64,000 nucleotides of DNA from Chloroflexota bacterium. Its GTDB lineage: Bacteria; Chloroflexota; JAJPGV01. The stretch covers positions 310,745 to 374,744 of the forward strand of contig JAJPGV010000034.1 in NCBI GenBank assembly GCA_021325635.1, in the 5' to 3' direction. Of this stretch, positions 9,981 to 24,004 are shown one piece after another. The position numbers were made by a program, and so were the translations under genes. The notes beneath the pieces were generated by a model. The model was not told the DNA's origin, made no database searches, and saw only the letters and a list, made by a program, of their open reading frames with translations. Each line of letters opens with the position of its first letter. Within the stretch, counting starts at the first letter, position 1.

Positions 9981-10586
9981 GTGAATCCGATTCCCCCACC
10001 ACCGCAGGGAATGGGCGACGATTTTGTCGCTTGGGTTCGTGAACACGGCCTGTGGGCAAAGTGGGCAACCCCACTCTCGCCGGCCCAGATTGACGGGATC
10101 GAACACCGTCTCGACCTGAAGCTCCCTCCGGATTACGTCCGGTTTCTGATGACGCTGCACGGTATCGAAATGCAGTGGAACGCAAGCGTGCTCTACAACT
10201 GGCTAAGCGAAGAGAAGGCAATCGTGGATATGATGAGCTGGCCCACGGAGGGAATCGTTTTTGATGTCGAGCACAACGCTCTGTGGCACGATTCGTGGGG
10301 TGAGCGGCCTGATACCGCCGCGGAGAGAAGCGCTATTGTCCAGGGGCTGGCCACTCGAGCTCCGAGGCTTATTCCTCTTTCGAGCCATCGATTCCTCGTC
10401 GCCCAACCGTGTGAGGCGGACAACATTGTGCTGTCGGTTTACCAAAGCGACATCATTCCCTGGGCCGCGACATTACGAGATTTCCTCATCAGTGTCTTCA
10501 CCTGCAAAAGCCCAGACAATCGTGCGGCTTACCAGGCCTGGAGCGAAGCGGCGCCAATACCGTTTTGGGGAGACCTCACGTCTTAG
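9981..10586 (+). CDS. SMI1/KNR4 (SUKH)-like protein
   Basis: A 201-residue soluble protein. The N-terminal part has the SUKH pattern: a helix with LSPAQIDGIEHRL, then LKLPPDYVRFLMTLHG, and further on the aromatic-rich WHDSWGERP. Members of this superfamily are often immunity proteins of toxin systems but also serve as general binding modules. No toxin gene is adjacent, so an immunity role is not supported here. It starts at GTG 9981; an in-frame ATG lies at 10011. The base composition is a little more AT-rich than the flanks. Confidence 0.65.
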   Translation: MNPIPPPPQGMGDDFVAWVREHGLWAKWATPLSPAQIDGIEHRLDLKLPPDYVRFLMTLHGIEMQWNASVLYNWLSEEKAIVDMMSWPTEGIVFDVEHNALWHDSWGERPDTAAERSAIVQGLATRAPRLIPLSSHRFLVAQPCEADNIVLSVYQSDIIPWAATLRDFLISVFTCKSPDNRAAYQAWSEAAPIPFWGDLTS

Positions 10587-17449: not shown

Positions 17450-18694
17450 TTACGCCTCCTGCACGCTGCCCGGGCGCAGTCGCGGTGCCGTTTCCGGCGT
17501 CTGCAGGACCAACCCGAGCTGCACGAAGCACATTGCCAGCAACGTCAGAACGCCCCAGACATGCGTTCCGCTCACGTCTCGCATCCAGCCGATGACTGCC
17601 GGTCCCCCAAGGACCCCGCTGTAGCCAACGGCCATCATCAGTCCCGAGAAGGCGCCAACCTCGTCCGGCGGGGCTACGTCGACCGGGATCACCAGGCTCA
17701 CAGTGAACAGCGCAGACAGCGAGACCCCCATGATGAACGGCCACAACCAGTACACCTGCTCGGGCACGAACAGCAGCCCCAGCACTCCGACGATCGACAG
17801 CAGAGCGCTCACGAGTAGCAGCGGCCGCCGTCCCCAGCGGTCCGAAGCCATTGGCCCCCCACTCCCGCCAATCACGGACCCCGCAGTCAGGGCTCCGAGG
17901 GTCGAGGCCGCCTGCCCAAGGGACCAGCCGAAGCTCTGATAGTAATTCACCAGCCAGGCGTTGAGAATGTAGAACATCACTGTCTGGGTGAAGAACACGC
18001 CACTCACGATCCACGCCAGCCGGTTACGAAAGATGCGGCCAAACGGCCTCAGGCTTTCCTTCTCGCGGTGCCGCTGCCCAGGGACGAACAACCAAGCCAG
18101 AGCGGTAGCCCAGACCACGGCCGACCACAGCAGGAACGGGCCGCGCCAGGTGAGCGCTCCGAAAGCTGGCAGCAGCACGGGCACCGTCAGCGTCGTGGCC
18201 GCCAACGCGCCCACGACGAAGCCGTTGGAATAGACGCCCGTCATCGTTCCGGTCCGCTGGGCGAACCAGTCCTTTACCAATCGCGGCAGCACCGGCTGAA
18301 CCAGCCCTATTCCGATGCCGGCCAGCGCGGTGAACACGAACATGGCCGGGACGTTGGTCGTGGTGGCTCGCAGTCCGCCGCCCGCTCCGAGGATGGCCAG
18401 GCTCAGCAGCAGCACCCATTTCACTCCCAGCCTGGCGATGATCAGTCCGCTGGGAATCGCAAACAGGCCCATCATGACCACCGGGATGGAGAACAGCAGC
18501 CCGGACTCGGCGTAACTCATCCCCAGGTCTTTCTGGATGAGCGGCAGCACCGGTCCCAGGGTCAGCGTATTGGTCCGCGCCGAGAAGGCGCACAGCCAGG
18601 CCAGCGCCAGGATCACCACCGGCAGCGCTCCGCCGGCCCGCCTCGCCGGTCTCATCAACGCGGGCGCAGACACTGGGCGTAAGTGTAGGGGCAT
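17450..18694 (-). CDS. MFS transporter of the CynX/NimT type
   Basis: A 414-residue twelve-helix major facilitator. The start of the fold (LTLGPVLPLIQKDLGMSYAESG) and the motif-A-like loop SGLIIARLGVKWVL resemble cyanate, nitroimidazole and organic anion transporters of the CynX/NimT group. The second half carries a matching loop (ASDRWGRRPLLL). The cargo is unknown. The first ATG (18694) lies in the middle of a perfect palindrome shared with the divergent bchI-like gene; an ATG at 18655 is a possible alternative start. Confidence 0.85.
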   Translation of the reverse strand: MPLHLRPVSAPALMRPARRAGGALPVVILALAWLCAFSARTNTLTLGPVLPLIQKDLGMSYAESGLLFSIPVVMMGLFAIPSGLIIARLGVKWVLLLSLAILGAGGGLRATTTNVPAMFVFTALAGIGIGLVQPVLPRLVKDWFAQRTGTMTGVYSNGFVVGALAATTLTVPVLLPAFGALTWRGPFLLWSAVVWATALAWLFVPGQRHREKESLRPFGRIFRNRLAWIVSGVFFTQTVMFYILNAWLVNYYQSFGWSLGQAASTLGALTAGSVIGGSGGPMASDRWGRRPLLLVSALLSIVGVLGLLFVPEQVYWLWPFIMGVSLSALFTVSLVIPVDVAPPDEVGAFSGLMMAVGYSGVLGGPAVIGWMRDVSGTHVWGVLTLLAMCFVQLGLVLQTPETAPRLRPGSVQEA

Positions 18695-18710: not shown

Positions 18711-19712
18711 GTGACGTATCCCTTCGTGGCAATCGTCGGCCAGGAGGAAATGCGGCTGGCGCTGATCCTGTCCGTCATCGATCGTTCGGTTGGCGGCGTG
18801 CTCGTGTTCGGCCACCGCGGCACCGGAAAATCAACGGCGGTTCGCGGCCTGGCAGAGCTCCTGCCGCGCCAGCGCGTGACAGCGGGCTGCCCTTACGGCT
18901 GCGACCCGGCCACGCCCTGCGAGGATTGCCGGCACGCAGGCCGGCGCAGGGCGGCCCAGCGCGCCGTGCCGGTAGTCGACCTCCCGCTGGGCGCCACCGA
19001 GGATCGCGTGACCGGCGCCCTGGACATCGAGCGCGCGCTGGCCGAGGGCATCAAAGCGTTCGAACCGGGCATCCTGGCCCGGGCTAACCGTGGGTTCTTA
19101 TACGTGGACGAGGTGAACCTGCTGGAGGACTACCTGGTCGACCTGCTGCTCGACGTAGCAGCCAGCGGCATCAACGTCGTCGAGCGCGAAGGGCTGAGCG
19201 TCCGCCATCCAGCCAGCTTCGTCCTGGTTGGATCGGGCAATCCGGAAGAGGGCGACCTGCGGCCCCAGCTGCTCGATCGCTTTGGCCTCGCCGCTACGAT
19301 AGCCACGGTCACCGACGTGGACCAGCGCGTTGAGATCGTGCTGCGGCGCCAGGCCTACGATCGCGACCCCCAGGCCTTCCAAGCACGCTGGGCATCACAG
19401 CACGAGGCGCTCAGGCGCAAGATCAGGCGAGCTCAGCAGCTCCAGCCGGAGATCGAGCTGCCCGGCGACGTCTTGCGGCGTATCGCGCAGCTCTGCGCCG
19501 ACCTCGAAGCCGACGGGCATCGCGGCGAGCTGGCCATTTGCCGTGCGGCCAGCGCTCTGGCCGCGTTGCGGGCCCGACCGGCGGTAAGCCTGGCCGAGGT
19601 GCGCGACGTGGCGGCTATGGCCCTGCGGCATCGCCTGGCGCGTGACCCACTGGATCGCGCCGATCCCGCGCCGAGGATCGAGCTGGCCCTGCAGCGCGTC
19701 CTCGCCGCCTGA
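18711..19712 (+). CDS. bchI: Magnesium-chelatase-type AAA+ ATPase (BchI/ChlI-like)
   Basis: A 333-residue AAA+ ATPase of the BchI group. Walker A is GHRGTGKST (34-42), Walker B FLYVDEVNLL, sensor 1 GSGNPEEG and the arginine finger lies in LLDRFGL. The BchI-specific insert with the CEDCR cysteine pair is also present. In chlorophyll makers this ring drives Mg insertion with BchD and BchH; related pairs serve cobaltochelatase or unknown chaperone-like roles. No bchH, cobN or other pigment gene is in the window, so the metal-chelatase role is open. GTG start; the gene overlaps the next by one base (TGATG). Confidence 0.88.
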   Translation: MTYPFVAIVGQEEMRLALILSVIDRSVGGVLVFGHRGTGKSTAVRGLAELLPRQRVTAGCPYGCDPATPCEDCRHAGRRRAAQRAVPVVDLPLGATEDRVTGALDIERALAEGIKAFEPGILARANRGFLYVDEVNLLEDYLVDLLLDVAASGINVVEREGLSVRHPASFVLVGSGNPEEGDLRPQLLDRFGLAATIATVTDVDQRVEIVLRRQAYDRDPQAFQARWASQHEALRRKIRRAQQLQPEIELPGDVLRRIAQLCADLEADGHRGELAICRAASALAALRARPAVSLAEVRDVAAMALRHRLARDPLDRADPAPRIELALQRVLAA

Positions 19713-21307
19713 TGATCGCCGGCCGCCCCGCCCTCACCGATCTGGCAGGCCTCGACCCTGCCGTGCAGGCGGCCATCGTGCTGGCTATCGAGCCAAGGCT
19801 GCGGGGCTTGCTGCTGTACGGGGGCCGCGGCAGCGGCAAGAGCGCGGTCATCGACGGTCTGCTCGACGTCCTGCCGGGCGGCGAGCACGTCTCGGCCGTC
19901 CACCACTGGGAGCTCGCCGCAGCCGCGGAGCGCTCCAGACTGGTGGCAGATGGCCTCGTCCTCGCCGCGTCCGATAGCAGTGAGGAGACCGAGGATCGGC
20001 TGGGACTGATCGTCTACCTGCCTGCACGGTCGATTGCAGAGGATCGCCTCGCCGTCCTGAGCGCAAGACGTGATGAGACCGAAGCCAGAATGCTCGGAGA
20101 GCGCATCGCCGAGGCGCAGGGCCGGCTTCGGGAGATAGCCATCGACCCGTCAGCCGCGCGCCTCATAGCCGAGAGCGCCACGGCGTTGCAGGTGAAAGGC
20201 AACCGCGCGGAGTATTTCGCCTGCCTGGCAGCGTGCGCCTGCGCTGCCTGGCAGGGACGCAGCCAACCCGACTCCGACGATCTGCAGGCCGCCGTGCGGC
20301 TTGTGCTCGCTCCGCGGGCCAGGGCTCTGCCCAGCGCCGCGCAGAACGAAGGCGAACGCGATCCTGGGACATCAGCTGCCACAGCCGCCAGCCCGACCGG
20401 CGAACACACCAGCCCGGGGCCCGATCCGGCTCCAAGCGGCGAGCAGCAATCTTCCTCCGATGCCGCCGCGTTCAGCGGCGAACCAGAACGCATGCAGCCA
20501 TCGTCCGAGGACGGCCGCCTCGGAGAGGACTCGTCGTTGGAGCGCCTCATCGCCGTGGCTCGAGCCGCGCTTCCGCCCTTCGTCGAGCGCCGGCCACGCC
20601 GGCAGCCAACGGACCCGGCGCGCCGAGGTCGTGCGCTGCCTGCCGTTCCTGCGGCGCGCAGCTCGCGGCCTGTTGCCCTCAGCGCCACCATTCGTGCCGC
20701 GCTGCCGTGGCAGCGCCTGCGCGGCCGGCAGCCCGGCGAACGGCTGCGGGTCACAGCTGGCGACCTGCGCATCAAGCGATTCCAGACCGCCCCACGGACG
20801 CTTACTGTGGCGCTGGTCGATGCGAGCGGGAGCATGGCTCACAATCGCCTGGCCGAGGCTAAAGGGGCGCTGCGAGACCTCCTGCGGCGCCTGTACGTGA
20901 GCCGCGACCGGCTGGCGCTGATTGCGTTCCGAGGGCAAAGCGCGAGGCTGCTGCTGCCACCTGGCCGCAGCCTATCGCGTGCCCAGCGAGCCATCGAGAG
21001 CCTGGCCGCGGGTGGTGGAACGCCGCTCGAGGACGGCCTGCAGCTTGCCCTGCGAGTTGTCGCGCAGGCGCGGCGACAGGCCCCGGCAGAGGGCGCGCGG
21101 CTGGTCCTGCTCACCGATGGCCATGCGGCCGCCTCGAACGGAGCAGATACGTGGACACAGCTGGGAAGTCAGCTCACGGCCGCCGGCGTGGAAGTCGTGC
21201 TGATCGACACGAGCGTCCAGCATCTCGGGCTCTATGAGGCGCTTGACCTGGCGGCCAGCCTCGGCGCCCGCTACGTGCCGCTGAGCAGGCCAACGGCGAC
21301 CGCGTGA
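19712..21307 (+). CDS. bchD: Magnesium-chelatase subunit D-like AAA/VWA protein
   Basis: A 531-residue partner of the BchI-like ATPase. Residues about 1-190 are a AAA fold with a Walker A-like GGRGSGKS but weaker other motifs. Residues about 195-300 are a low-complexity Pro/Ser/Glu hinge. The C-terminal 200 residues are a von Willebrand A domain with the MIDAS motif DASGS and later Thr/Asp positions (LLTDGHA). This is BchD architecture, shorter than many photosynthetic homologues. The ATG overlaps the bchI stop by one base, so the two products are made together. Confidence 0.87.
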   Translation: MIAGRPALTDLAGLDPAVQAAIVLAIEPRLRGLLLYGGRGSGKSAVIDGLLDVLPGGEHVSAVHHWELAAAAERSRLVADGLVLAASDSSEETEDRLGLIVYLPARSIAEDRLAVLSARRDETEARMLGERIAEAQGRLREIAIDPSAARLIAESATALQVKGNRAEYFACLAACACAAWQGRSQPDSDDLQAAVRLVLAPRARALPSAAQNEGERDPGTSAATAASPTGEHTSPGPDPAPSGEQQSSSDAAAFSGEPERMQPSSEDGRLGEDSSLERLIAVARAALPPFVERRPRRQPTDPARRGRALPAVPAARSSRPVALSATIRAALPWQRLRGRQPGERLRVTAGDLRIKRFQTAPRTLTVALVDASGSMAHNRLAEAKGALRDLLRRLYVSRDRLALIAFRGQSARLLLPPGRSLSRAQRAIESLAAGGGTPLEDGLQLALRVVAQARRQAPAEGARLVLLTDGHAAASNGADTWTQLGSQLTAAGVEVVLIDTSVQHLGLYEALDLAASLGARYVPLSRPTATA

Positions 21308-21335: not shown

Positions 21336-22031
21336 ATGTATCTGAAGATCGCCGTCGTCGGGCCGCAGGCCGACGACATCGGCCGCCTGCTGGGCAACCT
21401 GCCCGAGCGGCTGTTCATCCGCGAGCCTCCCAACGCCCGGCTGAGGTTGATCGTCGAGGCCTCGTCGCCAGGAAGCATTACCTTCACCCTCCTGGCCTAC
21501 CCCGAGCCGGCAATTGGCTGGGAAGCGCAGGAGAAGGAGCTGGCTATCGCGGATTACGTCAAGTCGAGGGTCGTGGCCCTGTCGCCCCTCTTCCGCTCAT
21601 TCCTCGATGGCGCCTTCGGGCCGGCATTGATGCCCGTCGCCCGTAACGAGCTGGCCAACCGCCAATTCGACCTCCAGGCGGAGATCGCGCCGCTCGCGGT
21701 GAACGTTCGCAATCCCAGCGTGAGGGCCATGTTCGAGCCACTCGGCTATCGCGTCGAGCTGGAGTCGCCCGTCTTCGGCCTGCCGGCCATCTTGGTGCGG
21801 CTGATCGGCCGCCAGTCCATCGTCGACGTGGTCAGGCAGCTATTCGTGCTGGTGCCCGCCTTGGATACGGCCAAGCAGTCTCCCCTCAACGCCGACGAGG
21901 CGCGGCGGCTGAGCCTCTTGAGCGCCCCCTGGTTGGCCAGGCACCCCAAGCGCTCGGTCATCGCCCGCAGCTACCGCCTGCGCCTCTCGCAGCTCCTTCA
22001 GGCCGGGACGAGCGCCTCCTCCGCCAGGTGA
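21336..22031 (+). CDS. Stand-alone Hen1 N-terminal (ligase-associated) domain
   Basis: A 231-residue protein that matches along its full length the N-terminal half of bacterial Hen1. Matches include the opening MYLKIAVVGPQADDIGRLL, ADYVKSRVVALSPLF with AFGPAL, the MFEPLGYRVEL segment, FVLVPALDTAKQ and WLARHPKRSVIARSY. In known systems this half binds and activates the Pnkp RNA ligase, while the C-terminal half is the 2'-O-methyltransferase that protects repaired tRNA ends. Here the methyltransferase half is absent and no pnkp gene is in the window. The gene lies 28 bases after bchD and overlaps the next start (GTGA), so it belongs to the AAA/VWA operon. The family match is from memory. Confidence 0.78.
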   Translation: MYLKIAVVGPQADDIGRLLGNLPERLFIREPPNARLRLIVEASSPGSITFTLLAYPEPAIGWEAQEKELAIADYVKSRVVALSPLFRSFLDGAFGPALMPVARNELANRQFDLQAEIAPLAVNVRNPSVRAMFEPLGYRVELESPVFGLPAILVRLIGRQSIVDVVRQLFVLVPALDTAKQSPLNADEARRLSLLSAPWLARHPKRSVIARSYRLRLSQLLQAGTSASSAR

Positions 22032-24004
22032 AAGCGGGCGGAATCAAGCTGAGCGCAGCCGGCATGGCCGGGCGCCGCTCTTGGCTCCAGCCCTCAATCG
22101 TCGGGCTCCTTTTCTTCGCCCTTTACGCCGCCACTCTGGCGCCTGACGTGGTCGGGCACGATGCCGGAGAGTTTCAATTCGTGCCGGCCATCTTCGGCAT
22201 TCCTCACGCTCCCGGATACCCACTCCAGCTCCTGGCCGGGAAGGCGTTCAGCTTCCTGCCCTTAGGCAGCGTCGCCTGGCGCATGAACCTGCTGTCAGCG
22301 CTCATCGGCGCCTCCGCGGCGGCGCTGACCTATCTCTGTGGCGTCGAGTTGCTGGGAACGTGGTTGGGCGGGCTCGCGGCCGCTTCCATCGTTGGGCTGG
22401 CGCCCCTCGAGTGGACATGGTCAACCATCGCCGGAATCCGGTCCGGCACGGTGGCCTTTGTGGCCGCGGTCGTGCTGGCCGCGCTGCGCTGGGAGAAGTC
22501 CGCGCGGCAGCCGAACGCTACGAAGCAATCAACTCCGACGACGAATCGCCGCTTGCTCATAGTGGCGTTGACGTTCGGGTTGGCAATGGACCACCACCGC
22601 ACCATCGTCCTCATCCTGCCTCTCCTCGGCGCGTTCATCCTGATGGTTCGCCGGCGTACCTTCATCGACGTCCCGCTGATGCTCGGCGCGGTCGGGACAG
22701 CCGCGGCGCCGCTGGCGCTGTACGGCATGTTCTTCCTGATGGCCAGGCTCGGCACGCCCTGGGACCAATACCACTCCGGTACCTGGTCAGGGTTTCTGGA
22801 CCTCGTGCTCAGCAGCTCCGACTCCGCCCGCCACCTGGACCTCTCGCCGGGCCAGGCCCTGGCGCGCTGGCCTCTGCTCAGCCAGGCCTTTTCGGGCCCG
22901 TTCTGGCTGACTGTGCTGGCCCTAGTGGGGATTGGTCTGTGCTGGCTGGCTGCGCGCCGGCCCGCGCAAGCCCTGCTGCTCGGTGGCTATGCGTCCATCG
23001 TCGGCTTTTTCACCCTGATCTGGAACGTCGGGTCCGACCTGAACCTGGTCTTCCTCATGCCGGCCTACGTTCCCCTGGCCCTGCTGGCCGCCGCCGGCTG
23101 CAGCGCGCTGATCGAGCTGGCCGGCAGGCTGCTCCGCCCCAGCTCTACTCAACGGCCCGCTGCGGGCGCGCAACTGCTGGGGCCGGCGCTTGCCCTTAGC
23201 ATTGCCGGGCTCGGGCTATTGAATGGCCGAGCGCACTTCAGGCCTGTCCCGGAAACCTTGGACGACTTCCGCGTGAACCTGCTCGACGGCCACCAGGCGC
23301 GCCGCCTGGCAGATGCCTTTGCCAGCTTGCCACCAAACGCGACGGTCGTGGGAGATTGGGACCAGGACACCGTGCTGTGGTACGCCCAGTACATCGATCA
23401 CCTGAACCCGACGGCGATGATCTCCTATCCGGCGACGTTACTGCCCAGCGTCCTGGAACGAGCTGGCGGACCCGTCTTTCTCACCACTGCCACGGTGCGC
23501 CCCACCGGACCCGTCAGCGCCTGGGGACCCTTCGTCGAGGCGCTCCGCTCACCCCAGACAGAGCTGCCGGCAGACGTGCGCCCCATGGGCGGCTCATTCG
23601 ACGGACAGATTCAGCTGGCCGGATTTGCGCCGATGGGGCAGCCCAGCTACGGCGTCTTGCCGGTAACCCTGTACTGGAAGGCCCTCCAACGGCCACCGGC
23701 CGACTATGCGGTTTCAGTGCGCCTCATGCCCTCGCCGGACCGCGTTGCTCGCCAGCGCGACGAAGCCGCGCCGGTGCTCGGTCTTTCGCCTACCTCGACC
23801 TGGCTTCCGGGGCAGGTCACCGCCGATTACTACGAGCTCGACGTTCGCTCCCTGCCAGATGGGCCATACGACCTGGCAGTGGTCTTGTACCAGCCCCTCC
23901 CGGGCGGTTACCGAAACCTCGCCTACGGATCCACCGACCGCGCTGTGCTCGGCACGGTCACCATGCGCTCCGGCGGCTTGACGTTCGAAGCTCGACGCTC
24001 CTAG
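22028..24004 (+). CDS. DUF2723 membrane protein (O-mannosyltransferase-like)
   Basis: A 658-residue protein with about ten to twelve N-terminal helices and a soluble C-terminal domain. The beginning (LYAATLAPDVVGHDAGEFQ, then GIPHAPGYPLQ) is the DUF2723 signature: an Asp-Glu pair in the first outer loop, as in GT-C-fold glycosyltransferases that use lipid-linked sugars. The last 120 residues are beta-rich (VSVRLMPSPDR, YYELDVRSLPDGPYDL) and probably face outside. The GTG start overlaps the preceding stop by four bases. Donor and acceptor are unknown. Confidence 0.8.
   Translation: MKAGGIKLSAAGMAGRRSWLQPSIVGLLFFALYAATLAPDVVGHDAGEFQFVPAIFGIPHAPGYPLQLLAGKAFSFLPLGSVAWRMNLLSALIGASAAALTYLCGVELLGTWLGGLAAASIVGLAPLEWTWSTIAGIRSGTVAFVAAVVLAALRWEKSARQPNATKQSTPTTNRRLLIVALTFGLAMDHHRTIVLILPLLGAFILMVRRRTFIDVPLMLGAVGTAAAPLALYGMFFLMARLGTPWDQYHSGTWSGFLDLVLSSSDSARHLDLSPGQALARWPLLSQAFSGPFWLTVLALVGIGLCWLAARRPAQALLLGGYASIVGFFTLIWNVGSDLNLVFLMPAYVPLALLAAAGCSALIELAGRLLRPSSTQRPAAGAQLLGPALALSIAGLGLLNGRAHFRPVPETLDDFRVNLLDGHQARRLADAFASLPPNATVVGDWDQDTVLWYAQYIDHLNPTAMISYPATLLPSVLERAGGPVFLTTATVRPTGPVSAWGPFVEALRSPQTELPADVRPMGGSFDGQIQLAGFAPMGQPSYGVLPVTLYWKALQRPPADYAVSVRLMPSPDRVARQRDEAAPVLGLSPTSTWLPGQVTADYYELDVRSLPDGPYDLAVVLYQPLPGGYRNLAYGSTDRAVLGTVTMRSGGLTFEARRS

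Follow-up and report, generated by a model that had tools for sequence, protein, structure and literature searches.

The Hen1_L gene and its neighbours

The window (the whole 64,000-nucleotide stretch of DNA that was analysed) carries a gene for a free-standing Hen1_L protein, which lies in a packed cluster with two chelatase-type genes and a membrane protein gene:

18711..19712, + strand: bchI-type AAA+ chelatase subunit (TIGR02030, 498 bits vs. a cut-off of 467, from residue 61)
19712..21307, + strand: bchD-type chelatase subunit with a degenerate AAA region, an AAA lid and a VWA domain
21336..22031, + strand: free-standing Hen1_L (PF12623) protein of 231 aa, without a methyltransferase domain (profile matches, PDB match, codon-position G+C)
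22028..24004, + strand: TMEM260-like (DUF2723) membrane protein (PF11028, 1.1e-24; GTG start)

The open reading frame at 21336-22031 begins with ATG and ends with TGA, and its codon-position G+C (0.67/0.46/0.90) resembles that of other real genes in the window. Pfam profile search of the 231-aa protein led to a match with Hen1_L (PF12623; E 4.6e-26, 91.8 bits vs. a cut-off of 23) in which profile positions 1-235 of 242 were aligned to residues 1-222. The protein is thus a member of this domain family, above the curated cut-off along the entire domain, and no other Pfam domain was detected. With the 462 positions of NCBIfam TIGR04074 (bacter_Hen1) it reached 78 bits vs. a cut-off of 340 and is not a bacterial Hen1 equivalog; as this match is confined to positions 2-234, the protein represents the N-terminal half of Hen1 only. 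A phmmer search against the PDB matched a single sequence, that of Hen1-N (4dqz/4drf/4e6n; E 3.8e-14). The sequence-only reading, which had recognised the N-terminal Hen1 half on its own and had proposed a profile search with this family and a structure prediction as checks, is borne out by these three matches. The structure model (mean pLDDT 61.8) agrees with it as well, aligning 195 residues to 4e6n_B with a Z of 15.5 and an rmsd of 3.7; Foldseek gave an E of 2.1e-11. Against CgiHen1 (4xru, 4xrp) Z was about 9, and unrelated KH-type folds reached at most 6. As the alignment used for the model included two canonical Hen1 rows, the agreement in fold does not count as evidence separate from the sequence match. 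An assembly chimera is unlikely, with the gene sitting within a 427-kb contig. Downstream of the gene, no frame encodes a methyltransferase half, shifted frames included as had been considered before, because the next CDS is the TMEM260-like gene. The observation of a lone Hen1 ligase-activator domain holds.

The junctions within the cluster are tight: the bchI stop and the bchD start overlap as TGATG, 28 nt separate bchD from the Hen1_L gene, and the TGA stop of the latter overlaps the GTG start of the TMEM260-like gene (the current Pfam name for DUF2723, PF11028). The longest ORF of bchI begins at 18537, but the TIGR02030 match leaves out the first 60 aa, whose coding region runs partly into a divergent MFS gene; the start is probably at 18711 or 18726. 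The bchD-type product showed VWA_2 (7.2e-18) and AAA_lid_2 (5.5e-12) in Pfam and stayed under the TIGR02031 cut-off (272.6 vs. 499.55 bits). The four genes are presumably co-transcribed, and the cluster of Hen1_L with BchI/BchD-like proteins and a DUF2723 protein, as described from the sequence, was recovered by the profile matches and the packing. At 9981-10586 the window also encodes an SMI1/KNR4 (SUKH-1) family protein with a third-position G+C of 0.65, unlike most of the window; immunity proteins are common among members of this family.

The missing Hen1 half and the missing ligase

The genome searched comprises 4.64 Mb in 63 contigs and is 96.4% complete. Even at an E limit of 10, the Pnkp ligase profile PF16542 had no hit anywhere in the genome, while it did match the Deinobacterium control. 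Likewise, nothing exceeded the cut-off of Pnkp TIGR04075 (851 positions) and nothing in the genome matched its ligase region, the only matches being short ones at the kinase end with at most 20.5 bits. The highest of them, at C32:159016, covers positions 9-123 and thus the kinase end only, and the protein belongs to no NCBIfam family. For a Pnkp1-Rnl-Hen1 system, with its unlinked Rnl and T4-type Pnkp1, PF16542 and TIGR04075 likewise revealed no ligase, though as Pnkp-type profiles they may miss CgiRnl-type or other distant Rnl-like ligases. For the methyltransferase half of TIGR04074 the genome yielded weak Rossmann-type matches only (at most 25.5 bits), and a match near 8.2 kb of the window was rejected as a generic Methyltransf_25 protein (11.4 bits). 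The genome does not contain a recognisable Pnkp-Hen1 RNA repair system, though at 96% completeness Pnkp could lie in a gap. Accordingly, the absence of Pnkp suggested by the window extends to the searched genome, and the proposal that the domain serves an unlinked ligase received no positive support, as no Pnkp-family ligase was found; a distant Rnl-type ligase, an unrelated one, or one encoded within the missing 4% may still exist.

Chelatase genes in the same genome

The genome encodes a complete CobN that shares its contig with a fused ChlI-ChlD gene (G000:C50, ~87-93 kb; L085). A split BchH/CobN-type chelatase subunit, made up of two adjacent genes of 704 and 500 aa, was found on another contig (L086:6083-9696; G000:C36, ~11.1-14.7 kb), where it adjoins a cbiG-cobJ fusion gene. 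No bchL over the cut-off was detected in this genome, and phototrophy was ruled out as an explanation of bchI/bchD. The presence of a split BchH elsewhere in the genome favours reading the BchI/BchD pair of the window as chelatase subunits, and this pair probably powers that BchH in an organism that is not phototrophic. Across 400 same-phylum genomes, Hen1_L was absent within 1.5 kb of bchD at all 29 of the best BchD loci; the BchI-BchD-Hen1_L gene order was seen in this genome only, which is the sole representative of its class in the set. The earlier suggestion that the domain was recruited to an AAA/VWA machine was not confirmed by either result, nor was the neighbourhood found to be conserved.

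Distribution of Hen1_L and of decayed hen1-pnkp loci

PF12623 matches were detected in 41 of the 400 same-phylum genomes, this one included. In 37 of them the domain is complete and its frame longer than 300 aa; the others are a frameshifted copy (G328), two fragments (G132 and G300) and the stand-alone complete domain reported here. No second stand-alone complete Hen1_L was found in the 400 genomes, even with a profile that included the 231-aa protein. The lone domain is so far a singleton, which was counted against its reading as a repurposed domain. Sixteen plasmid records had a Hen1_L match, and all nine loci that were opened contained full-length Hen1 ORFs. On plasmid P2 of Deinococcus gobiensis (L098:3862-5567), two nucleotidyltransferase-domain genes lie between hen1 and pnkp. 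Relatives of the 231-aa protein were not found in viral contigs, none of the PADLOC defence-system models matched it, and a literature search found no mention of PF12623. By tblastn, Pnkp was present in the short flanks of 30 of the 41 Hen1 loci and in five of seven further or extended Hen1 regions, in most of the extended ones slightly farther away. Two genomes, G040 (L102) and G099 (L106), encode a full-length Hen1 with no Pnkp within 13-18 kb around the gene.

Several loci in the phylum reflect losses within hen1-pnkp. In G115 (L043:2245-3285; C31, ~214.2-215.3 kb) a clean in-frame deletion has taken ~150 residues out of the Hen1 methyltransferase core, spanning reference residues ~250 to 411 and including the GCGEG motif, with the N-domain and a C-terminal methyltransferase piece kept and an open pnkp of 860 codons following. 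Either this Hen1-Pnkp pair lacks the methyltransferase naturally, or the assembly is wrong here; as a separate natural experiment, the deletion bears on whether repair without methylation is tolerated. Deletion scars are found in G300 (L038:3145-4258), where Hen1 1-114 is joined to Pnkp 529-830, and in G198 (L039:3297-3674), where Hen1 1-46 is fused to the Pnkp C-terminus; in G132 a Hen1 stub of 50 residues is left.

Divergence and residual constraint

The 231-aa protein shares 25-31% identity with canonical Hen1 N-domains, vs. at least 43% among canonical pairs. It falls outside all canonical Hen1 in the tree and cannot be placed there because its branch is saturated, with about 10 changes per column. 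Nevertheless, 26 of 45 near-invariant Hen1 columns (58%) are kept, vs. about 31% expected to survive under uniform neutral drift (binomial p 1.9e-4), a rough test that starts from a typical Hen1 and lets it decay uniformly; at variable columns the protein has the majority residue in 40 of 190. The core motifs FEPLGY, YVxxR, VLxPxLD and WLxxHP are retained, much of NDRPY(V)ASS and the HY of KHYW are lost, and the loop around LDE.PEWG is shorter by about 7 residues. Together, the drift test, the uninterrupted frame and the close packing of the genes argue against a dead relic.

Interpretation

With a probability of roughly 0.55, we read the protein as a former Hen1 domain that has lost its methyltransferase and Pnkp and is kept under selection for a job unrelated to Pnkp, probably as a protein-binding adaptor. 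Most likely a full-length Hen1 lost its methyltransferase half, and Pnkp, the ligase activated by Hen1-N, would have been lost from the lineage. The direction of this change is suggested by comparison with CgiHen1: a canonical full-length Hen1 query matched the distant CgiHen1 (4xrp) in the methyltransferase half only, and the 231-aa protein still matches Pnkp-type Hen1-N by phmmer, so that full-length architectures appear on both sides of it. With CgiHen1 being the more distant, the full-length form was probably ancestral. As the remaining domain seems to have been maintained by selection while diverging strongly, it would probably do something other than activate Pnkp. Hen1-N holds the insertion domain of the ligase (Pnkp or Rnl) in an open conformation, with part of its beta-sheet gripping that domain and an extended loop reaching the C-terminal part of the ligase (PMC4411300). 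Since Hen1-N works by binding another protein, an adaptor with a new partner would be the likeliest present role. The nearest candidate partners would be the products of the packed genes, i.e. BchI/BchD and the TMEM260-like protein, for which the packing with the Hen1_L gene is the sole argument. BchI/BchD chelatase as the partner is a conjecture, and we find it rather unlikely that the Hen1 ligase-activating fold has become an accessory or regulatory subunit, be it of the BchI/BchD chelatase motor or of the glycosyltransferase-like membrane protein encoded next to it.

A rather unlikely alternative is that the domain goes on activating an RNA ligase, either one whose gene falls in the part of the genome that is missing or one too distant and Rnl-like for the profiles. 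The Pnkp1-Rnl-Hen1 system sets a precedent, with hen1 far from the ligase operon and a ligase only ~20% identical to the Pnkp ligase (PMC4411300), and both the incomplete genome and the two full-length Hen1 genes without nearby Pnkp in G040 and G099 would fit. Against this stand the empty searches, with PF16542 silent even at E values as high as 10 and TIGR04075 silent in its ligase region, and the extent to which conserved features of Pnkp-type Hen1-N are changed (parts of both NDRPY and KHYW, the ~7-residue loop). Quite improbable is a functionless relic of a decayed hen1-pnkp operon whose frame stayed open by chance. The internal-deletion scars of G300, G198 and G132 do keep the Hen1 N-terminus, as such a relic would, but these true scars are short and broken, whereas the protein described here has a complete domain, 231 open codons, strong third-position G+C, neighbours that overlap or nearly touch it, and a preferential retention of invariant columns.

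Very improbable, in our view, is descent from an old stand-alone domain that was later fused to a methyltransferase and became the N-terminus of Hen1. An outlier position beyond all canonical Hen1 and the lack of any methyltransferase trace would be expected in that case, but the protein is closer to Pnkp-type Hen1-N than the N-domain of full-length CgiHen1 is (Z 15.5 vs. 9.3), and because the CgiHen1 N-domain is the less similar one, full-length Hen1 brackets the 231-aa protein. Moreover, the 400 same-phylum genomes yielded no other stand-alone member. A former Hen1 domain now kept for a different role is the reading we prefer.

In the complete homologues examined, Hen1_L is accompanied by a methyltransferase and usually by Pnkp. 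A copy that has neither and is still constrained suggests an ability of the ligase-activating fold to live alone, and through it one can test whether this fold serves as an adaptor that opens proteins in general or is tied to RNA ligases. If the chelatase-subunit reading were true, it would represent the use of a Hen1 domain outside RNA repair.

Comparison with known systems

The 231-aa protein resembles the Hen1-N structures (4dqz, 4drf, 4e6n) in matching the whole domain, in the predicted fold and in the core motifs. It differs from the Hen1-N of canonical Hen1 by the missing methyltransferase half, an identity of only 25-31%, the lack of a detectable Pnkp ligase in the genome, the mostly lost KHYW and NDRPY(V)ASS motifs and the shortened LDE.PEWG loop. 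With the Capnocytophaga Pnkp1-Rnl-Hen1 system (4xrp, 4xru; PMC4411300) it shares a Hen1 domain without adjacent pnkp and a fold similarity of Z ~9. In contrast, CgiHen1 has a methyltransferase and its genome encodes Rnl and Pnkp1, whereas a PNKP_ligase-type gene was not found in the Chloroflexota genome. The G115 Hen1 similarly retains Hen1_L without a working methyltransferase core; unlike the 231-aa protein, however, its Hen1_L is canonical and well conserved, the C-terminal end of its methyltransferase remains, and an open pnkp lies beside it.
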